Below are positions 9,055 through 64,000 of a stretch of DNA of 64,000 bases, in pieces. Within the stretch, counting starts at the first letter, position 1. The number at the start of each line of letters is the position of its first letter. The notes beneath the pieces were generated by a model. It was not told where the DNA came from. It worked only from the letters and a program-made list of their open reading frames with translations, and ran no database searches. Origin of the DNA: Lachnospiraceae bacterium (lineage in GTDB: Bacteria > Bacillota > Clostridia > Lachnospirales > Lachnospiraceae); NCBI GenBank assembly GCA_024692715.1, contig JAILMH010000015.1:1-64000 (forward strand). The letters are read 5' to 3'. The translations under genes were made by a program, and so were the position numbers.

Positions 9055-9663
9055 ATGGCAGGAGAAACACACTTGGCGATCGGAGTTGCTTCAGTATTGG
9101 CAATTACGCAGCCCACAACCTTGAGAGGTGTTGTTTTGGCAATTGGAACCGGTGCGATAGGCGCCGTGATCAGTGATATCGATGTAGGTAGCAGTGGGTC
9201 GAGAAAGGGGGCAGATAAGGTTATCGCACTTACCGGACTGGCTATTATATTGATTTTCTTTGCTGATCATTTCCTGAATACGGGAATTTGGAACAGGATG
9301 GTTCAGAAGCAGGGAATTCCTGAGATTTTGATAGGATTGCTTCTTTTTGTTGGAACTTGTATATTTGGAATGGAACAGCCTCACAGGACATTTATGCATT
9401 CGCTATTAGCACTTTTAATGCTGGAGATCGCACTTAATATCATGCTGCCTTCGGCAGTGATCTATTTTGGAATTGGATTTTTGTCACATATTGTGACAGA
9501 TTTCTTCAATTATAAAAAGGTGCGGGTTTTCTATCCATTGAAACAGGGAATATGCTTTAAGATGTTTCATGCATGTGGTATTGCTAATTCCATTTTTCTG
9601 GGAGTAGGAATTTTAGTGAGCATTTATGAAATTTTTTCACTGATAATTCTAAAGAGATTGTAA
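9055..9663 (+). CDS. YdjM-like membrane-bound metal-dependent hydrolase
   Basis: MAGETHLAIGVA...HRTFMHSLLALLML...FGIGFLSHIVTDFF. Confidence 0.65.
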   Translation: MAGETHLAIGVASVLAITQPTTLRGVVLAIGTGAIGAVISDIDVGSSGSRKGADKVIALTGLAIILIFFADHFLNTGIWNRMVQKQGIPEILIGLLLFVGTCIFGMEQPHRTFMHSLLALLMLEIALNIMLPSAVIYFGIGFLSHIVTDFFNYKKVRVFYPLKQGICFKMFHACGIANSIFLGVGILVSIYEIFSLIILKRL

Positions 9664-9744
9664 AAATGTGCCGATAAAAAGTTTACAGTGATTATCTGAT
9701 TTAGGTGAACTTTTTATGAATTTAAGATTAAATTTAGAAAACAC

Positions 9745-9753
9745 TGTTATAAT
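9745..9753 (+). promoter_or_regulatory. Extended -10 promoter candidate (TGtTATAAT)
   Basis: Exact TGnTATAAT upstream of the secreted protein gene. Confidence 0.5.
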
Positions 9754-9780
9754 GAAGGGGAATTTAAAGGAGGAAAGAAA

Positions 9781-11115
9781 ATGATTTCTAAGAGATTGCG
9801 CAAGTCACTGACAGCGCTCCTTACTGCTGCACTTGTTGCTGCGACACTTGTTCCTGTTTCAGCTGCTGAAACGGCAAGTTCTGATTCAGTGAGCACTGAT
9901 TCAGCTATCGAAACAAGTACTGAGGAAGCTGATACAGAGACAGTAAGCGACGCTGATGCTGGAGAGTCAGAAGTCGAAGTAGAGAGCACAGAGGATGAAG
10001 AGGTTGATACTCAGTCTACAAATGCTCAGGTTTCAGGTGTAACAGTATCACTTGATGAGCCAGTATATATGAAGACCGGTTCAGCAATCAAGCCTACACC
10101 ACATGTAACAGTAAGCGGAACAACTGTTAGTGCAGGAACTTATACAGTTTCCTACCACAATAACACTAAGGTTGGTACTGCTGCAGTTGTAGTTAAGGGT
10201 GCTAACAAGGGTGATGTTAAGTGGACAGGTACATATTCTGCATCATTTAAGATCGTTAAGAAAAAGATCAGCCTTTCAAGCAAGGAGATCAAGGTTCTTG
10301 GCGTTGAGGACAGACAGTACACTCAGAGCGGAAACTACAAGCAGGACAATGTAAAGGTTTATTATATCAACCCTGAATCAGGCGATTACACAGAGCTTAG
10401 AGAAGGCGTTGACTATACAAAGACGATTACAGGTACATCTGCTGCAAATAAGAAGAAGATGAAGGTCGTTATCACACCTGCAAGTTCTTCAACAATATTC
10501 AAGGGCAAGAAGACTATCAAGTTCAGAACTTATGATAAGAAGAAGGTCCTTACTGATCCTGATAACATTACAGTAAGCGTTAGCTACAACAATAAATCAC
10601 TTGCTAACTATGAAGCAGTTGATCCTGTATTTAAGAACTCAACAAGCCTTGCACTTACAAAGATCAAGCCTTCAGTAACTCTTACTGATTCTGACGGTAA
10701 TAAGCTTACAGAGGGAACAGATTATAAGGTAACTTATAAGGCAAACAAGAACCCTGGAATTGCTTCTATCGTTGTTAAGCTTAAGAAGTCAGGTAAGCAG
10801 ACATACTATGGCAAGCTTATAAGATACTTCACTATCGAGCCTATCGAGATCACATCTTCTATGGTTACATACTGCCAGACAAAGTCAAGCAGCTACACAT
10901 ACACAGGTGATGAGATCATTCCTTCAATGAAGGTTAAGGTAAAGATCAACGGTAAGGTAAGAACACTTACTCAGGATACTGACTATTATGTTGCTTGCAT
11001 TAACAATGTAAAGAAGAGAAGTGCCTCAGCTACCAACCCTCCAACAGCTTATGTATTTGGAATGGGTAAGTATCAGGGATACATCGGTTCTGACACCTTT
11101 AGAATTAAAAAATAA
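9781..11115 (+). CDS. Secreted surface protein with acidic linker and Ig-like/repeat modules
   Basis: Signal peptide ending VSAAE, Ser/Thr/Glu-rich linker, repeated ..GTxYxVxYxxNxxxGxAxVVVK.. units. Confidence 0.7.
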   Translation: MISKRLRKSLTALLTAALVAATLVPVSAAETASSDSVSTDSAIETSTEEADTETVSDADAGESEVEVESTEDEEVDTQSTNAQVSGVTVSLDEPVYMKTGSAIKPTPHVTVSGTTVSAGTYTVSYHNNTKVGTAAVVVKGANKGDVKWTGTYSASFKIVKKKISLSSKEIKVLGVEDRQYTQSGNYKQDNVKVYYINPESGDYTELREGVDYTKTITGTSAANKKKMKVVITPASSSTIFKGKKTIKFRTYDKKKVLTDPDNITVSVSYNNKSLANYEAVDPVFKNSTSLALTKIKPSVTLTDSDGNKLTEGTDYKVTYKANKNPGIASIVVKLKKSGKQTYYGKLIRYFTIEPIEITSSMVTYCQTKSSSYTYTGDEIIPSMKVKVKINGKVRTLTQDTDYYVACINNVKKRSASATNPPTAYVFGMGKYQGYIGSDTFRIKK

Positions 11116-11136
11116 AATAACTGATCAGTTTTTTGA

Positions 11137-11172
11137 GAAGAGTATTTCCGGATGAAATACTCTTCTTTTTTT
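11137..11172 (+). terminator. Intrinsic terminator
   Basis: gaagagtattt...aaatactcttc 11-bp stem followed by T7. Confidence 0.9.
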
Positions 11173-11182
11173 ATAAGTACGC

Positions 11183-11212
11183 TTGACGTTTGACATATAG
11201 GACATTTATAAT
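11183..11212 (+). promoter_or_regulatory. Sigma-A promoter TTGACG-N18-TATAAT
   Basis: Near-consensus -35/-10 upstream of 11255 CDS. Confidence 0.55.
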
Positions 11213-11254
11213 TATATGGCTAATATTAGATAAAATAAGAAGGAACATTTCATT

Positions 11255-12019
11255 ATGAAGAAATTGTCAGTTGTAGTACCGACATACAATGAAAAGGGTA
11301 ATGTCGAGAACCTTGTTGAGCAGATTGGGGCTGCTCTTAATGGTATTGAATATGAAATAGTTTTTATTGATGATAGTAAGGACGAGACTCCACAAATTCT
11401 TGAACGCCTTTCAAAGGAGAATCCGCACGTAAGATACGAACATCGTGTTGGCGAAACAGGACTTGCTACAGCAGTAATACGAGGCTTTAGAATTGCTGAA
11501 GGTGATTTTCTTGCTTGTATGGACGCAGATCTTCAGCATCCACCGGCTATTTTAAGACCGATGTATGCGGCGCTCCTTTCAGGTGCAGATTTCTGCATTC
11601 CGTCCCGTTTGATTCCAGGCGGAGATGATGGCGGACTTAACTGGTACAGAAAGTTTGTATCAGGCACTGCAAGATGGATGGGTAAGATAGCACTTCCGTG
11701 CCTTAGAAAGATTTCAGATCCGACAAGCGGTCTTTTCATGTTTAGAAAAGAGTGTATCGCCAATGCAGATCTTAGACCGGTAGGCTGGAAGATCATGGTT
11801 GAAGTTCTTGCTATGAGTGAATATAAGAGTGTTATTGAGATACCTTATGCATTCCAGAACAGGACCTCAGGAGAGTCAAAGCTTTCATCAAAGGTTACGA
11901 TGCAGTATCTTGAACAGCTTTGGAAACTTATGTTTCGTGCAACTAAGCGCGGAGGCTACACAGTTACAAAGTGGACCAATGAACACACTGATGAAATGGT
12001 CAAAAAATATATAGGATAA
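11255..12019 (+). CDS. Family 2 glycosyltransferase (dolichyl-phosphate mannosyltransferase-like)
   Basis: [18 protein letters not shown]...MDADLQHPP. Confidence 0.85.
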
Positions 12020-12020
12020 A

Positions 12021-14864
12021 ATGGCTGATTATAGAAAATATATTAAGATCAGAGGGGCGCGTGCCCATAACCTAAAAAATATAAATATAGATATACCGAG
12101 AAATGAGTTAGTGGTGCTTACGGGACTTTCAGGGTCTGGTAAGTCATCGCTTGCTTTTGACACGATGTATGCGGAAGGACAGAGACGGTACATGGAGTCT
12201 CTGTCTTCTTATGCCCGTCAATTCTTAGGGCAGATGGAAAAACCTGATGTTGATTCAATAGAGGGTCTTCCGCCTGCTATATCTATCGATCAGAAATCAA
12301 CTAACAGGAATCCAAGATCTACTGTTGGAACTGTTACTGAGATATATGATTATTTCAGACTGCTTTTCGCAAGAGTCGGAGTTCCACATTGTCCAAACTG
12401 CGGAAAAGTAATTGAAAGACAGACTGTTGATCAGATGGCCGATAGAATCATGAAACTTCCTGAAAGAACACGGATTCAGCTTCTTGCACCTGTTGTAAGG
12501 GGACGTAAGGGAAGACATGAAAAGGTTCTTGAACAGGCTAAAAAGAGTGGATATGTAAGGGTACGTATAGATGGAAATCTTTACGATCTCTCTGAAAATA
12601 TCGTGCTTGAGAAAAACATCAAACATAACATTGATGTTATTGTTGATCGTCTTGTTGTCAAGGCGGGAATAGAGTCCAGACTGACTGATTCGATAGAAAA
12701 TGTTCTTAAGCTTTCAGATGGACTTATGACTGTTGATGTCATCGATGGTGAAGAAATTCATTTTTCTGACAGCTTTTCCTGCCCGGATTGCGGAATAAGT
12801 ATTGATGAGATCGAGCCTAGAAGCTTTTCGTTCAATAATCCCTTTGGGGCGTGCCCGGATTGTGCTGGACTTGGGTATCATATGGAGTTTGATGAAGACC
12901 TTATGATACCAGATAAATCTCTTTCATTTAATGAAGGCTGTGTTCAAGCTATGGGATGGCAGTCAGCAGCAAAGCCCGGAAGTTATACGCATGCTCTTTT
13001 AGAGGCACTGGCGGAACAGTATGATTTTTCACTTGATACTCCGTATGAAGAATTAAGTGATGAAGTTCGAGATATGTTCATAAATGGGACCAAGGGAACT
13101 ATCGTAAAGGTTCATTACAAAGGTAAAAGATCAGAAGGTGTCTATGATGAAGCTTTTGACGGACTTATCAGTAATATGGAACAGCGTTATAGAGAGACTT
13201 TTTCTGAGGCACAAAAGGCAGAATATCAGAAGTTCATGCTTGTAACACCGTGCTCCACATGTCATGGACAGAGATTGAAAAAAACATCTCTTGCGGTAAC
13301 GGTCGGAGATAAAAATATTGCTGAAGTAACATCACTTTCTGCAAGCAGGCTGCTTGATTATATGAATGGTCTTGAGCTTGACGATCATAAGATGATGATC
13401 GGAAAACGCATTATTAAAGAAATCGATAACAGAGTAAGATTTCTTGTTGATGTTGGATTGGAGTATCTGACATTGTCCAGAGCAACAGCGACACTTTCTG
13501 GAGGAGAGGCGCAGAGAATCCGTCTTGCAACACAGATAGGTTCGGGCCTTGTCGGTGTTGCTTATATACTGGATGAACCGTCGATAGGACTGCATCAGAA
13601 AGATAACGATAAACTTCTTGCGGCACTTAAGAGATTAAGGGACCTTGGAAATACTCTTGTTGTGGTCGAGCACGATGAAGATACTATGAGAGAAGCTGAT
13701 TTTCTTGTGGATATCGGACCTGGAGCCGGAACACATGGAGGCACGGTGGTTGCTTCGGGTACAGCAGAAGAGGTAATGGAAAATCCTGACTCCATAACCG
13801 GTAAGTATCTTAAGGGCGAGCTTAAAATAGATGTTCCGGGAACGAGGCGCGAACCGACTGGCTGGATCAAAATTCGAGGAGCGAAAGAAAACAATCTTAA
13901 AAATATAGATGTTGAAATACCGCTTGGAATTATGACAGTTGTTACCGGCGTGTCAGGTTCAGGAAAATCGTCGCTTATAAATGAGATTTTATACAAGAGC
14001 CTTGCAAGAAAGCTGAACAGAGCACTAACCAAGCCGGGAAAACATGATGGAATCGATGGAGTCGAACAGCTGGATAAGGTTATCGATATCGATCAGTCGC
14101 CTATAGGACGTACGCCAAGGTCAAATCCGGCTACTTATACAGGAGTTTTCGATCAGATAAGAGATCTTTTTGCGAATACTGTTGAGGCTAAGGCAAAGGG
14201 ATACTCAAAAGGCAGGTTTTCGTTTAATGTGAAGGGCGGACGCTGTGAAGCCTGCTCTGGTGACGGAATTGTTAAGATAGAAATGCATTTCCTCCCTGAC
14301 GTGTATGTACCCTGTGATGTTTGTCATGGCCAGAGATATAATAGAGAGACCCTTGAGGTAAGATATAAGGGCAAAAATACTTATGAAGTACTTGATATGA
14401 CAGTTGAAGAGGCGCTAGGCTTCTTTGAAAATATCGAGACTATAAGAAGAAAAATACAGACTTTATATGATGTAGGACTTGGATATATCAAACTTGGACA
14501 GCCTTCAACCGAGCTTTCGGGAGGAGAGGCGCAACGTATAAAGCTTGCAACAGAACTCTCTAAGAGAGGAACAGGAAAGACTATTTACATTTTGGATGAA
14601 CCGACTACAGGTCTTCATTTCGAAGATGTCAATAAGCTTGTAAAAATTTTAAGAAGACTTTCTGAAAGCGGTAACACTGTCGTAGTAATTGAGCACAATC
14701 TTGATGTTATCAAGTGCGCAGATTATATTATTGATATGGGACCAGATGGTGGTGACGGAGGCGGAACTGTAGTGACCTATGGTACGCCGGAAAAAGTCGC
14801 AAGAAGCCGTAAGTCATATACGGGAAAGTATATAAAAAAGATGCTCGACCGTGAAAAAAAATAA
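12021..14864 (+). CDS. uvrA: Excinuclease ABC subunit A
   Basis: [20 protein letters not shown], two ABC ATPase domains, CxxC zinc motifs. Confidence 0.98.
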
Positions 14865-14972
14865 AAGAAAATGTGAACTATGCATACATGGGGTTTATAA
14901 AAACCCGATACCGACCGATATAAAGTTAGAATTAAGTATTATAACGTTTTTGTGAAAAAATCAATGTGAATG

Positions 14973-15000
14973 TTGTAAATACATCGGTTTCGGTTATAAT
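14973..15000 (+). promoter_or_regulatory. Sigma-A promoter TTGTAA-N16-TATAAT
   Basis: Consensus -10 and partial -35 upstream of mreB-family gene. Confidence 0.55.
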
Positions 15001-15092
15001 TAAGATTGTATGCCTGTAATCAGCGCGCATTCATCTGGCAGATGAAGTGTTTGAAGAGGCGCGTTTTTACATAGATCGAAAGGGGAACCGAA

Positions 15093-16097
15093 ATGGTTGC
15101 AACAGATATCGGAATTGATTTAGGAACAGCTAGTATTCTCGTATACATCAGAGGCAAGGGCGTCGTACTTAAAGAGCCTTCAGTAGTTGCTTTTGACAGA
15201 GATAAAAATACAATTAAGGCTATTGGTGAAGATGCAAGATTAATGCTTGGACGTACACCTGGAAATATCGTAGCGGTAAGACCGCTCCGTCAGGGTGTTA
15301 TTTCTGATTATACAGTAACAGAAAAAATGCTCAAGTATTTTATTCAGAAGGCCGTTGGAAGAAGAACTTTCCGTAAGCCTCGTATCAGCATCTGCGTACC
15401 AAGCGGTGTTACAGAGGTAGAGAGAAAGGCTGTTGAAGATGCCGGATATCAGGCTGGAGCGAGAGAAGTAAGTATCATCGAAGAGCCTATAGCAGCAGCT
15501 ATTGGTGCAGGTATTGATATTTCAAAGCCATGCGGAAATATGATCGTTGATATAGGTGGTGGAACATCAGATATCGCAGTTATTTCACTTGGCGGAACGG
15601 TAGTATCTACTTCAGTTAAAATTGCAGGAGATGATTTCGACGAAGCTATCGTTCGTTATATGAGAAAGAAGCATAAGCTCCTTATCGGTGAACGTACAGC
15701 TGAAGATTTGAAGATAAAGATCGGCTGCTGCTTTAAGATGGCAGAGGCCGAGGAAATGGATGTCAGAGGACGTGACCTTGTTACAGGTCTTCCTAAGACA
15801 GTTAAAGTTTCAAGTGTCGAGACAGAAGAGGCACTTAGAGAGACCACATCCCAGATTGTGGAGGCAATTCATGGAGTACTTGAAAAGACTCCGCCGGAGC
15901 TTGCTGCTGATATTGCAGACAGAGGCATTGTTCTTACCGGAGGCGGAAGTTTGCTGCGTGGTCTTGAAGAGCTGATCTCTGATCGTACTGGAATCAATAC
16001 CATGACCGCAGAGGATCCGATGACTGCAGTAGCTATCGGAACAGGACGATATGTAGAGTTTATCGCTGGGGATAGAAGCGATTTCTCAATAAAATAA
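15093..16097 (+). CDS. Rod shape-determining protein MreB/Mbl family
   Basis: DIGIDLGTASILVYIRGKGVVLKEPSVVA; actin-like ATPase motifs; position before flhO/flhP-like genes resembles B. subtilis mbl. Confidence 0.93.
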   Translation: MVATDIGIDLGTASILVYIRGKGVVLKEPSVVAFDRDKNTIKAIGEDARLMLGRTPGNIVAVRPLRQGVISDYTVTEKMLKYFIQKAVGRRTFRKPRISICVPSGVTEVERKAVEDAGYQAGAREVSIIEEPIAAAIGAGIDISKPCGNMIVDIGGGTSDIAVISLGGTVVSTSVKIAGDDFDEAIVRYMRKKHKLLIGERTAEDLKIKIGCCFKMAEAEEMDVRGRDLVTGLPKTVKVSSVETEEALRETTSQIVEAIHGVLEKTPPELAADIADRGIVLTGGGSLLRGLEELISDRTGINTMTAEDPMTAVAIGTGRYVEFIAGDRSDFSIK

Positions 16098-57620: not shown

Positions 57621-58379
57621 ATGTTAAAGTTAGCAATTTATGGAAAAGGCGGAATAGGAAAATCAACGACGACTGCGAACCTCGCGGCCGCCTTTTCTCT
57701 ATTAGGGAAAAAAGTAATACAGATCGGATGTGATCCAAAGGCGGACTCTACAATGAATTTGCTTGGTGGAGAACCTGTTGGCTCAGTTATGGATTACATG
57801 AGAAAAAATGATGCTCTGCCGGAAGACTACCATGAAGTTGTAAAGGAAGGATTCGGTGGAGTTCTTTGTATAGAAACAGGAGGTCCTACACCGGGGCTTG
57901 GCTGTGCCGGAAGAGGAATCATTACAACATTTCATCTTCTGGATGATCTGGAGCTTTTTGAAAAGGAAAAGCCGGATGTGGTTTTGTATGATGTTTTGGG
58001 AGATGTTGTCTGCGGCGGCTTTGCAGCCCCTATAAGAGAGGGTTATGCAGAGCAGGTACTAATAGTCACATCAGGAGAAAAAATGGCTCTGTACGCTGCG
58101 AGAAATATCAATGAAGCGGTAAATAATTTCCAGGACAGGGGATATGCAAAGGTTCGAGGAATCATTTTGAACCATAGAAATGTTAAAGATGAAAATGCAA
58201 AAGTAGAAGCGTTTGCGAAGGAAAATGGGCTCAATGTGATCGGAGAGATCCCTCGAAGTGATGATATTATTTTTTATGAAGAAGCAGGAAAAACAGTAAT
58301 AGAGGGAGATCCTGAGCTTGAAGTGAGCAGGCACTATATTGAGCTTGCAAAGAAATTATTGGCGGAGGATGCACAATGA
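57621..58379 (+). CDS. NifH/BchL-family nitrogenase iron protein-like reductase
   Basis: [28 protein letters not shown] (C95) and [12 protein letters not shown] (C131) Fe-S ligands. Confidence 0.93.
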
Positions 58380-60706
58380 GCAATGGAGCTGTCTGCTATA
58401 CCGTAAAAGAGCTTTCAGAAAGAAATGATATTCCCTCAGAATTTACACTGTCATCGCATCTGATCTATAGTTCACCGGCCACACTTGCATATAATTCTCC
58501 GGGAGCAAAGGGGTTTGGCGTTAAAAGAGCAGGACTTTCTGTTCCGGATTCGGTGATGCTTATAATTTCTCCTGGATGCTGCGGACGAAATACATCAGAA
58601 CTCAGTAATTTGCCGCAGTATAAAAACAGATTCTTTTATCTTACCATGAGTGAGACAGATCTTGTTACAGCAAGACATTTAACGAGTATCCCGAAAGCCG
58701 TAAAGGGAATACTGGAAAGTCTGAATAAAAAGCCTTCGGTTGTAATGCTTTGCGTTACCTGCGTAGATGCCCTGCTTGGCACAGATATGGATAGGGTTGC
58801 AAAGAAATGCGAGGAACAGTGCGGTGTCAGGGTAAGACCATGCTATATGTATGCGCTGACAAGAGAAGGGAGAAAACCGCCGATGGTGCATGTCAGAGCA
58901 TCGATCTATTCGCTTTTGGAAAAGAGACGGCGTCGCAGTAATGCGGTCAATCTTCTCGGATTTTTTGCAAATCTTAATGACTCATCGGAATTATATGACC
59001 TTCTGAAAAGTTCAGGAGTTAAACATATTCGAGAGATCTCACGATGTGAAAATTATGAAGCCTTTGAGGAAATGGCTGAGGCAAGCTTTAACGTGGTCTT
59101 AAATCAGGAAGCACGGCATGCGGCGGATGAATTGTCAGAAAGACTTGGACAGCCTTATATAGAGCTGAAAAGGTTCTACAGTGCGGAACGTATACATCGC
59201 CAGTATAGAGCTTTTTTTAATGCGATAGGATCTCAGGTGAATGATGATGAATTTTTTGAAAAAGCTAAAGCAGCTGAGAAAGATTTTTCTGAAAAATATA
59301 AGGGATTGAAAGTATCGATCGGAGAAAGCGTCAATGCAGATCCTTTTGAACTTGCATTTTCGCTCGCCTGCCTAGGTGCTGAGGTCAGAGAGATCTTCGG
59401 CGTGGTTACAGGCGAAGCAATGGTATGGATAAATAAACTTGCGGAGATAAGTCCTGAAACAAAAGTATATTGTAATCAGGACCCGTCAATGCTGCATTAC
59501 GAGTCGGGGAATTCAGAAGTTGATCTGACTATCGGTAAAGATGCATCGTACTATCACCCGGAAACAAAGCATCTTTTATGGAATGAAGATGAGCAGCCGT
59601 TTGGATTTGATGGTCTAGTCAGGCTTCTTAAAGCAATAGCTGATACTGTGAAAAGTTCCGCAAGCAAGGAAAAATCAAAGACTGAAACAGAAATAGAAGT
59701 AAAAGATGAATTAAAACTCACTGAAAGCGGAAATATAAGAGGCTTTAGAAGAGTTCTGACACCTTTTGCACCGGACCAGAGCGGCGCAGTCTCATATGTT
59801 TACAGTAAGGGCGGAATGATAGTTATCATTGACGCAGGAGGCTGCACAGGAAATATATGTGGGTTTGATGAGCATCGCTGGGTAAGTGCAGGAATGGGTG
59901 CGAGAACAGCAGTATTCAGCGCCGGTCTTAGGGATATGGATGCTATTCTCGGACGAGATAAGGAGCTTGTCGAAAAGCTCAGTTCAGCGGCGGAAGCTAT
60001 AAAACCGAAATTCATAGCTTTGATCGGAACTCCGGTGCCTTCAGTGATCGCAACAGATTATATGGCGCTCAAACGTATGAGTGAAAAGTCATGCGGAGTT
60101 AAAACGATCACTATCCAGACAAATGGCATGGAGCTCTATGATAAGGGAATAGAGCGTGCTGCCGGGGCAATCGGGTCTGAAGCAATAAGCAGTGGAGATA
60201 TGGTGGGGTTCACACCGATGGATTTTGCAGAATTCAGAGAGGATGATGTGAAAGAAGCGTGGAAGGCTGATAAAGCGGCAGATATTCTTGCATTGTCTCC
60301 TGCAGTACTGAAGGTTGTTCGTGAAGTTTGTAAAAATAAAGGACTTTCGTATGAATATGGATTTCCGAAGGCTGGTGAATGGCTCGAGAATGTGCCGGAT
60401 TTATCCGGAAAGAAAGTTCTTATAGTGCATCAGCAGGCTGCAGCGCATTCTTTGAGAAAAGAGATCGAGAAAAGATATCGTGGAACGGATGTTACCGTGG
60501 CTTCATTTTTTATGATGGATAGTGAGTATAAGCGGGAACAGGATGTAAAACTGAAAGAAGAGTATGATCTAACGGACCTTGCAGGACGTGAAAATTACGA
60601 TGTCATATTTGCAGACCCGATAATGAAACCCCTTGTGAAGACAGAATGTGAATGGATAGATATGATGCATTTTGCGGTTTCAGGGCAGAGACCGGAAGGA
60701 ACGTGA
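58376..60706 (+). CDS. Nitrogenase component 1-like protein with two tandem NifD/K-type domains in one 776-aa chain
   Basis: N-half SPGCCGRNT and [13 protein letters not shown]; linker [20 protein letters not shown]-half [16 protein letters not shown] and [20 protein letters not shown] overlap with NifH-like gene. Confidence 0.8.
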
Positions 60707-60709
60707 GAA

Positions 60710-63019
60710 ATGGAAACACGTAGATTAAGAGTTCATGGTATCGTTCAGGGAGTGGGATTCAGGCCTGCAGTAGCGCGTTTAGCTGCAAAATATAAATTAA
60801 CCGGCAATGTAAGCAATAGAGGACCTTTCGTAGAAATTTTCCTACAGGGGGAAAGCAGTGCAATAGATGAGCTGAGCTTGGAGCTTCGTGAAAATTCCCC
60901 TGAAAGAGCTGAGATCATAAGAATCGAAGAAGAACATATAGAGGCTTCGAATGTTTATGATACTTTTTCTATAGTTGAAAGTGAAAAAACCACCGGAGAA
61001 ATTTACATTCCGCCGGATATAGCTATATGTGAAAAGTGTGCAGAGGAACTTTTTGATCCAAAGGACCGGAGGTATCTTCATCCATTCATTAACTGTACTT
61101 CATGCGGGCCAAGGCTTACCATATTAGAGCATTTGCCATATGACAGGGAGAGGACTTCGATGAAGCATTTCCCCATGTGTGAGAAATGTGCAGAAGAGTA
61201 TAGATCACCAAAATCTCGAAGATATGATGCGCAGCCTGTCTGCTGTAATGATTGTGGTCCGGAAGTATATGTGCTTGAAAAAAACGGAGATATAAAGATT
61301 AAAGGCTCTGCAGCGATCCTTAAGGTAAGAGAAGTTTTAAGAAATGGAGGAATAGCTGCTGTCAAAGGGATAGGCGGTTTTCATCTTTGCTGTGATGCTT
61401 CAGATGAGGCAGCGGTCAGGCTTTTAAGACAGAGAAAACATAGGCCGGTAAAGCCGTTTGCAGTTATGGCGGCAGATGAAAAAGCTGTAAGACGCATAGC
61501 AAGGGTAGAACCGGAAATGGAACCCGTTCTAAAAGGGCATCAGAAGCCGATAATTTTAATGCGGCGGCTTAAAGATTCCGGACTTGCAGATTCATTATGC
61601 CCGGGAAATCCCAAAATAGGTATAATGCTTCCGTATACACCGCTTCACATGCTGCTTTTTAAATACCCGGATGGTAAAACTTTTCCCGGGACTTTAGTTA
61701 TGACAAGCGGAAATGTTTCAGGAGCACCGATATGCGTGAGTGATGATGAAGTACTTCGGGAACTGTCGGGATTTGTTGATATCATACTTTCACATGATAG
61801 AGAAATATTGACGCGTGCTGATGATTCCGTGATGGATTTTTACAGGAAAAAGCCATATATGATAAGGCGTTCGCGAGGGTATGCTCCGCTTCCGTATCAG
61901 ATCTCATCCATAACTGAAGGTGAGGTTCTGGCCGTTGGAGGTGAGTTAAAAAATACGTTTTGCATCGGCAAAAATGGCTTGATGTATCCCTCGGCATATA
62001 TAGGGGACCTTGCCGATGTAAGGTCTCTTAAGGTTTTAGAAAAGACTGCAGATAGAATGAAGGATATGCTTGAAAGCAATCCTGAGATCGTTGCCTGTGA
62101 TCTTCATCCGGCATATCATTCCACAGAATTTGCAGAGAGTATCGGAAAAGAAGTTTTTAAGGTTCAGCATCATTATGCACATATTCTTTCGTGCATGGCT
62201 GAAAATGATGTTTCAGAAAAGGTGATCGGTGCGGCCTTTGACGGAACAGGATACGGAACGGACGGAAATATCTGGGGCGGTGAACTGCTGCTGGCAGATC
62301 CGTATGGCTTTAAGAGAGCCGGAAGTATTGTGCCGTTCAGGCAGGTCGGAGGAGATGGAGCTTCGAAAGCCGGATGGAAAATAGCAGCTTCGATGATAAG
62401 CTCACTTTACGGTAAGGAAGCAGCTTCAGAAATTGTAGAAAATCTGCATATTACGGATAGGGTACAGCTTAATGTTATAGCCAAAATGGCCGAAAAAGGA
62501 CTTAACACAGTGACTTCGACCAGTGCAGGAAGGCTTTTTGACGCGGTCAGTGCTGTGCTTGGAATAGTGAGAGAATCTACTTTCGAAGGAGAAGCTTCAA
62601 CAGCACTTCAGTATACTGCAGAAAGATGCAAAAACCGTGATATAATTCAACTGCCGGAGCTTATTACTGAAAACAATGGATTTGTAAATATCAGGACAGA
62701 TAATATTTTCAGGCAGATAGTGGAGGACAGATCGTCCGGTATGCCGATAGAAAAATGTGCGTATGAATTCCATGCATGGCTTGCAGAGGGAATTTCAGAA
62801 GCATTGATCAGAATAAGGAATTTGTCAGAGATAAATATTGCCGCTTTAAGCGGAGGAGTATTTCAGAATACGCTGCTGCTGGGACTTGTTGAAGCAAAGG
62901 CAGAGGCAGCGGGGCTTAAAGTGCTTAAGCATAGTCTTGTTCCGCCTAACGACGGAGGGATAGCTTTAGGACAGGCATTTGCGGCAGCAGCTAAGCTGCA
63001 GCAGAGAGCGGAAAGATAA
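60710..63019 (+). CDS. hypF: Carbamoyltransferase HypF
   Basis: Acylphosphatase domain GIVQGVGFRPAVARLA, two Cys4 Zn motifs, YrdC-like domain, Kae1-like domain VQHHYAHILSCMAEN. Confidence 0.96.
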   Translation: METRRLRVHGIVQGVGFRPAVARLAAKYKLTGNVSNRGPFVEIFLQGESSAIDELSLELRENSPERAEIIRIEEEHIEASNVYDTFSIVESEKTTGEIYIPPDIAICEKCAEELFDPKDRRYLHPFINCTSCGPRLTILEHLPYDRERTSMKHFPMCEKCAEEYRSPKSRRYDAQPVCCNDCGPEVYVLEKNGDIKIKGSAAILKVREVLRNGGIAAVKGIGGFHLCCDASDEAAVRLLRQRKHRPVKPFAVMAADEKAVRRIARVEPEMEPVLKGHQKPIILMRRLKDSGLADSLCPGNPKIGIMLPYTPLHMLLFKYPDGKTFPGTLVMTSGNVSGAPICVSDDEVLRELSGFVDIILSHDREILTRADDSVMDFYRKKPYMIRRSRGYAPLPYQISSITEGEVLAVGGELKNTFCIGKNGLMYPSAYIGDLADVRSLKVLEKTADRMKDMLESNPEIVACDLHPAYHSTEFAESIGKEVFKVQHHYAHILSCMAENDVSEKVIGAAFDGTGYGTDGNIWGGELLLADPYGFKRAGSIVPFRQVGGDGASKAGWKIAASMISSLYGKEAASEIVENLHITDRVQLNVIAKMAEKGLNTVTSTSAGRLFDAVSAVLGIVRESTFEGEASTALQYTAERCKNRDIIQLPELITENNGFVNIRTDNIFRQIVEDRSSGMPIEKCAYEFHAWLAEGISEALIRIRNLSEINIAALSGGVFQNTLLLGLVEAKAEAAGLKVLKHSLVPPNDGGIALGQAFAAAAKLQQRAER

Positions 63020-63029
63020 GGAGAAAGAT

Positions 63030-63242
63030 ATGTGTGTCGGATTATCAGCAAGAGTATTAAAGGTCAGTAATGGAACAGCTATCATTGACGCATCAGGAGC
63101 TAAAAGAAGTGTTTCATCAGAACTTATCGCAGATCTTGAGCCGGGAGATTATGTTATGGTCCATGCAGGATCTGCAATTGCTAAAATAACGGATGATGAT
63201 GTAAATGAATCAGATGAGTTGATGAAGGAGTTCATGAATTAA
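63030..63242 (+). CDS. hypC: HypC/HupF family maturation chaperone
   Basis: MCVGLSARVLKV...DLEPGDYVMVHAGSAIAKI; between hypF and hypD. Confidence 0.88.
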   Translation: MCVGLSARVLKVSNGTAIIDASGAKRSVSSELIADLEPGDYVMVHAGSAIAKITDDDVNESDELMKEFMN

Positions 63243-64000
63243 TGACAGAAGAAGTAAAGAAAGGCATCGAGTTCCTTAAAAATTATGATGGTAAGAAGCT
63301 TAGGATAATGGAAGTGTGCGGAACCCATACGCATGAGATTTTTCGTCTTGGGATCAGAAAGCTTCTTTCTGACAAAATAGAACTCATTTCGGGACCGGGA
63401 TGTCCGGTGTGCGTTACACCTGCAGGGTTTATCGACAGTGCGGTAGAGCTTGCGCTTGATCATGGTGTGACTATATGTACCTTTGGAGATCTTGTGCGTG
63501 TTCCGGGTTCTGAGACAAGCCTTCAGAAGGCAAGGGGGATTGGTGCAAAGGTCAAGGTGGTATATTCTCCGCAGGACGCCGAAAAGTACGCTGAGGAGCA
63601 TCCTGAAGAGGAAGTGGCTTTCCTTTCAGTTGGCTTTGAAACGACCACGCCCTCTTCATGCATTGCTGTAAGGGATGCCGAGGCAGCGGGGATAAAGAAT
63701 TTTTCTCTGGTCACAGCAAATAAGACCATGCCGGGGGCATATGAGGCCATGGCGGATTATACAGATATTTATTTATATCCGGGACATGTCCATGCGATAA
63801 CAGGCCTTAAGGACTGTGAGGACATGCTTAAAAAAGGAATGAGTGGCGTTGTGGCCGGCTTTACGGCGTCTGAGCTTATTTCAGCACTTGCGATAGCTGT
63901 AAAGAAGTATCAGAGCGGAGAGCCGTTTCTTGTAAATGCATACCCAAGAGTTGTAACAGAAGAGGGAAGTCTGAAAGCAAAAGAACTGGTAGAGCATTAC
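63242..64000 (+). CDS. hypD: Hydrogenase maturation factor HypD (truncated by window end)
   Basis: RIMEVCGTHTHEIFRLGIRKLL; GPGCPVCVTP; no stop before 64000; TAATG overlap with hypC. Confidence 0.95.
   Translation, partial: MTEEVKKGIEFLKNYDGKKLRIMEVCGTHTHEIFRLGIRKLLSDKIELISGPGCPVCVTPAGFIDSAVELALDHGVTICTFGDLVRVPGSETSLQKARGIGAKVKVVYSPQDAEKYAEEHPEEEVAFLSVGFETTTPSSCIAVRDAEAAGIKNFSLVTANKTMPGAYEAMADYTDIYLYPGHVHAITGLKDCEDMLKKGMSGVVAGFTASELISALAIAVKKYQSGEPFLVNAYPRVVTEEGSLKAKELVEHY

Follow-up and report, generated by a model that had tools for sequence, protein, structure and literature searches.

The operon at the end of the analysed stretch is likely to encode the first half of an alternative pathway, independent of HydG, by which the [2Fe] subsite of the [FeFe]-hydrogenase H-cluster is made. 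Comparative sequence data give good support to the replacement of HydG, in the maturation of this enzyme, by a module of nitrogenase-like (Nfl) and Hyp proteins. Compared with the HydE/HydF/HydG maturation system, genomes with this module contain HydE, HydF and HydA that are ordinary family members, but they lack HydG and have HypCDEF and two nitrogenase-like complexes in its stead.

The window, that is the whole stretch of 64,000 bases analysed here, corresponds to positions 1-64000 of a 67381-base contig (C65) in a draft genome of 2.09 Mb (G000; 79 contigs, 90% complete). The genes of the operon, including those that follow the window on the contig, are listed below.

57621..58379, + strand: nflH, NifH-like Fe protein, 252 aa; PF00142 (Fer4_NifH), 4.7e-88
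58376..60706, + strand: nflDK, nitrogenase component 1 with its D-like and K-like halves in one protein, 776 aa; PF00148 (Oxidored_nitro) in two stretches
60710..63019, + strand: hypF, carbamoyltransferase; TIGR00143, 749.8 bits; five Pfam domains, the full domain set
63030..63242 (Met start 63030), + strand: hypC, nfl-linked type of this chaperone (MCVGLSA..., with Cys2 retained); TIGR00074 over cut-off
63242..64000 in the window (253 of 348 aa; end at contig position 64288), + strand: hypD; TIGR00075 over cut-off
contig 64316-65320 (L003:7317-8321), outside the window: hypE; TIGR02124, 406 bits
contig 65335-66414 (L003:8336-9415), outside the window: hydE; TIGR03956, 554 bits

The five genes from nflH to hypD lie on one strand, at the positions given in the preliminary description, and its spacings of -4, +3, +10 and -1 nt were correct. 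It had proposed to extend the sequence past position 64000 in order to find hypE, hypA and hypB. The extension revealed hypE, together with an unforeseen hydE, and neither hypA nor hypB was seen in the cluster. HydE is a maturase of the [FeFe]-hydrogenase H-cluster and has no part in the [NiFe] pathway. On the contig, hydE is followed by rplM and rpsI.

The sequence of NflH contains the Walker A motif and both [4Fe-4S] cysteine motifs, and scores below the cut-offs of the curated NifH, CfbC and BchL models. No nifB, nifE/N, bch/chl or cfb gene had been noticed previously; no nif, bch or cfb model reached its curated cut-off. In NflDK, conserved cysteines are located at C68/C69 and C126/C129 of the D half and at C490 of the K half. 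No invariant Cys/His pair resembling the FeMo-co ligands was seen among the conserved positions of NflD and NflK. An AlphaFold model built from four aligned sequences was of low quality (pLDDT 57) and was left unused. The fusion is found in the window, and in most relatives nflD and nflK are separate genes. A second set, nflH2-D-K, is located on contig C39 of the same genome, and in the tree its NflH2 groups with the H protein of the second pair of other clusters. NflH1 proteins form a clade of their own (29/29 rows, support 100), to which NifH, BchL and the Fe protein of Mar do not belong. The possibility that the window's pair belongs to a characterised clade had been raised at the outset; its place is outside the Mar, Nif and Bch clades that were tested, and CfbCD was judged by HMM cut-off.

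The distribution of the module was assayed by running an NflDK profile (A1) over 396 genomes drawn evenly from the family, with a threshold of E<=1e-60. Matches were obtained in 33/396 genomes, of which 30 carry the window's Nfl clade and three (G068, G112 and G356) a separate Nfl clade linked to ABC transporters. The hyp genes were visibly linked to nfl in 27/30 genomes of the window's clade. In the other three, the locus reaches a contig end (G155 and G376) or consists of nflH with a shortened nflDK (G375). The arrangement is thus not limited to a single genome, and a one-genome oddity, which the preliminary description had kept in view, is rejected on the basis of these 27 recurrences. Within the same draw, a second nitrogenase-like pair was present inside the cluster in 22/27 genomes and hydE and/or hydF in 15/27, or in 18/30 when G061, G063 and G033 are counted. 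In the range covered, roughly one third of the clusters, or more, had hydE and hydF unlinked (~12/30). No other recurrent gene of the nfl-hyp clusters appeared as an obvious client.

Gene order varied between relatives. The KH1T2 isolate (G061, L005) displays the same order as the window. In RUG11089 (L006), the order is nflH-nflDK-hypF-C-D-E-nflD3-nflK3-hydF-hydE; RUG14439 (L007) is arranged in the same way, but with nflD and nflK split and with hydF as last gene. In G293 (L130 2106-4430), hydE and hydF are inserted between nflD and nflK in the same operon. Finally, the main operon of G033 ends with nflD3-hydF, and nflK3 adjoins hydE at a second locus.

HydG (TIGR03955 over cut-off) was detected in 0/30 Nfl genomes versus 20/39 comparison genomes, the latter being 36 Nfl-negative controls and the three transporter-clade genomes of the same draw, counted regardless of HydA. 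Fisher's test gives p=1.2e-6, which is optimistic because the species are related; the 30 Nfl genomes span many genera (more than 25). HydG was also not found in the KH1T2 isolate, in G063, in G064 or in G033, whose assembly is 99% complete in 3 contigs. It is present in 31/61 genomes of the draw of relatives to which G033 belongs. A diverged HydG overlooked by the model is unlikely, since even ThiH scores about 190 bits. No match fell between the ThiH and HydG levels in Nfl genomes, and the weaker matches were read as HydE and ThiH. Two genomes of the transporter clade, G356 (99% complete) and G112, contain HydA over cut-off (loci L162 and L168) without HydG and without an nfl-hyp operon. Therefore HydG loss can have another cause, and these genomes indicate that at least one other solution exists, or an assembly gap. 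Nine genomes negative for both HydG and Nfl, tested within the genus, contained no HydA over cut-off.

In trees, the HydE and HydF proteins of Nfl genomes are intermixed with those linked to HydG, and the alignments reveal no fixed difference between the two groups. This suggests that the intermediate handled downstream is unchanged; an exchange confined to the upstream module would indeed be expected to leave HydE and HydF ordinary. HydF was present in G033, G061, G062 and G063, and was not found in the draft metagenome-assembled genomes G000 and G064. In the established pathway, HydG is described as required for H-cluster synthesis; it delivers Fe(Cys)(CN)(CO)2, with 1 CN:2 CO, to HydE, which performs reduction and dimerisation to yield the diiron [2Fe]E for HydF (PMC12752695). 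With HydE and HydF in the absence of HydG, activation in vitro is about 1%, far below that of a working pathway (PMC9431212). In Hyp systems, carbamoyl phosphate is the source from which HypF and HypE produce cyanide, and Fe(CN)2CO, with 2 CN:1 CO, is assembled on HypCD; the anaerobic source of this CO is unknown and has been termed the most pressing open question of the field (PMC12134894). The HypCD synthon thus differs from the HydG product in its ratio of CN to CO, and added CO or ligand remodelling is therefore needed. An ATP-driven low-potential reductase could be the kind of enzyme able to add CO or to remodel the ligands. Searches confined mostly to open-access papers yielded no description of a route that does without HydG in nature.

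We propose the following sequence of steps. HypF and HypE would convert carbamoyl phosphate to cyanide, and the dedicated HypC-HypD pair would assemble an Fe-CN-CO unit. Low-potential electrons would be given by two ATP-driven complexes, NflH with NflDK and NflH2 with NflD3/K3. With these electrons, the HypCD unit would become the HydG-type product, in which Fe carries a single CN and two CO ligands. CO might arise at the iron of HypCD through reduction of CO2 or of a C1 unit; alternatively, the Fe(CN)2CO unit might be remodelled reductively. The Fe synthon would then be handed to ordinary HydE, HydF and HydA. In this scheme, both the formation of the HydG product by the module and the step assigned to Nfl are inferences; the Nfl complexes probably provide extra CO or reduction. 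Its most specific form has, in our judgement, slightly less than an even chance of being right: a tyrosine-independent H-cluster pathway in which dedicated HypCDEF and two Nfl reductases replace HydG, one of the reductases making CO at the HypCD iron.

Other roles have to be considered for these proteins. Nfl might work in the manner of NifEN, as a scaffold or insertase for the joining or reduction of two Fe units, with HypCD using CO from a still unknown anaerobic source. HydG would again be replaced by the module, so that this is a variant within the preferred explanation and not exclusive of it; we regard it as possible, but rather doubtful. It is consistent with the cysteines kept by NflD and NflK, which could hold an Fe-S cluster without a ligand pair of the FeMo-co type, with the presence of two Nfl pairs, and with the unresolved anaerobic CO source of HypCD (PMC12134894). 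However, a further scaffold for dimerisation would duplicate HydE, which already reduces and dimerises (PMC12752695) and in which no fixed differences are seen here. More distant from the preferred explanation is service of the module to a [NiFe] (Ech-type) hydrogenase, in which ordinary Hyp proteins would be accompanied by a passenger nitrogenase-like redox pair; a redox enzyme co-regulated with such a hydrogenase had been suggested in the preliminary description. The hypFCDE genes are genuine Hyp genes: as in [NiFe] assembly, nfl-linked HypF, HypC, HypD and HypE score over their curated cut-offs and keep the catalytic residues, including the C-terminal PRIC of HypE (27/27) and the active-site and cluster cysteines of HypD (all rows of the alignment). 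Moreover, HypD is frequent in the genus and in some genomes lies beside Ech-like genes. However, the [NiFe] large subunit (PF00374) is absent from 24/30 Nfl genomes, the window's genome included, and also from G061-G064. HypCDEF are therefore without a known client in most Nfl genomes. In G033 and several other Ech-bearing genomes, it is a second, separate hypC-D-E set that adjoins the Ech-like gene. In the HypD tree, the nfl-linked proteins form a single clade (27/27, SH-aLRT 100) that excludes the ten other HypD, most of which are Ech-linked, and the separation holds for both copies of single genomes. A clade-specific cysteine occurs at residue 257 in 26/27 nfl-linked HypD (L003:6243-7289). 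Nfl-linked HypC (L003:6031-6243) keeps Cys2, mostly has LSA replacing LPG and lacks the GCIxQK motif, which also sets it apart from the [NiFe] system. Cys257 of HypD and the LPG to LSA change of HypC are possible signs of an interaction with a new partner. Given the missing large subunit, the separate hyp set beside Ech and the distinct HypD clade, service to an Ech or other [NiFe] hydrogenase is rejected as very improbable.

Two parts of the earlier interpretation thus fared differently: the idea of a nitrogenase-superfamily enzyme that acts in the assembly of a metallocofactor has gained support and become stronger, but the [NiFe] link falls, and the data favour the [FeFe]-hydrogenase H-cluster, with loss of HydG. 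HydA-like sequences were found in 29/29 Nfl genomes tested in the draw, 24 of them over the curated cut-off. HydA is also present in G000, G033, G061, G062 and G064, with intact L1, L2 and L3 motifs in G000, G033 and G061. At one locus (L069, ~9096-15101), HydA lies beside a gene for a 615-aa partner and apparent rnf genes. A last possibility is that the Fe-CN-CO cofactor made by nfl-hyp is destined for some enzyme that is not [FeFe]-hydrogenase, hydE and hydF being neighbours through shared regulation and the H-cluster diatomics being sourced elsewhere. The separation of the Hyp clade from [NiFe] systems, the ~12/30 clusters with unlinked hydE and hydF, and the existence of genomes with HydA but neither HydG nor the module (G356 and G112) would all fit with this. 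The linkage to hydE or hydF nevertheless recurs in 18 genomes, HydG is avoided completely, a HydA-like sequence occurs in every genome tested and no other obvious client recurs. Service to another enzyme is consequently unlikely, although less so than service to a [NiFe] hydrogenase, and replacement of HydG is the reading that we retain.

Known nitrogenase-like systems were also compared with Nfl. The methylthio-alkane reductase MarHDK (PDB 9FMG, PMC12552129) likewise combines a nitrogenase-like Fe protein with a DK-type partner, and NflH aligns well to chain D of 9FMG. However, the 9FMG H protein falls outside the NflH clade, NflDK has no match to the 9FMG chains at E<0.1, and the gene context differs; Nfl does not group with MarH/MarDK. 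CfbCD and BchLNB are also ATP-driven reductases composed of NifH-like and NifDK-like proteins, and act on a cofactor precursor. The CfbC, CfbD, BchL, BchN and BchB models nevertheless remain well below cut-off, which led us to reject F430 or chlorophyll synthesis, and no tetrapyrrole gene was seen in the window's cluster. Nitrogen fixation was rejected as well, with the nifH model reaching 306 of the 394 bits needed and the D and K parts below all cut-offs.

The transporter-linked nflHDK trio of Treponema and Sporomusa plasmids and of G356, G068 and G112 also belongs to the Nfl superfamily, but it forms a separate group whose neighbours are iron/B12-type ABC transporters and not hyp or hyd genes. 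Such nflH-nflD-nflK loci were observed in Spirochaetes, Negativicutes and Lachnospiraceae (L009, L205, L146, L147, L149 and L206), including the Treponema saccharophilum plasmid pTS1 (L009) and a Sporomusa termitida plasmid (L205). Their context suggests that a metal complex is imported and then processed by reduction. One of them, an 8.5 kb record from human faeces labelled 'Bacteriophage sp.' (L206, MT836848.1), looks bacterial and not phage. Phage and plasmid records contained only this transporter-linked clade or true NifH/BchL.

Altogether, if the replacement of HydG by the Nfl-Hyp module is correct, one of the most active H2 catalysts would be accessible by two routes, the second of which avoids HydG across more than 25 genera. 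The question of the CO source would become testable at a single genetic locus, and an uncharacterised branch of the nitrogenase superfamily would gain a function. It would also mean that evolution swaps entire organometallic modules.
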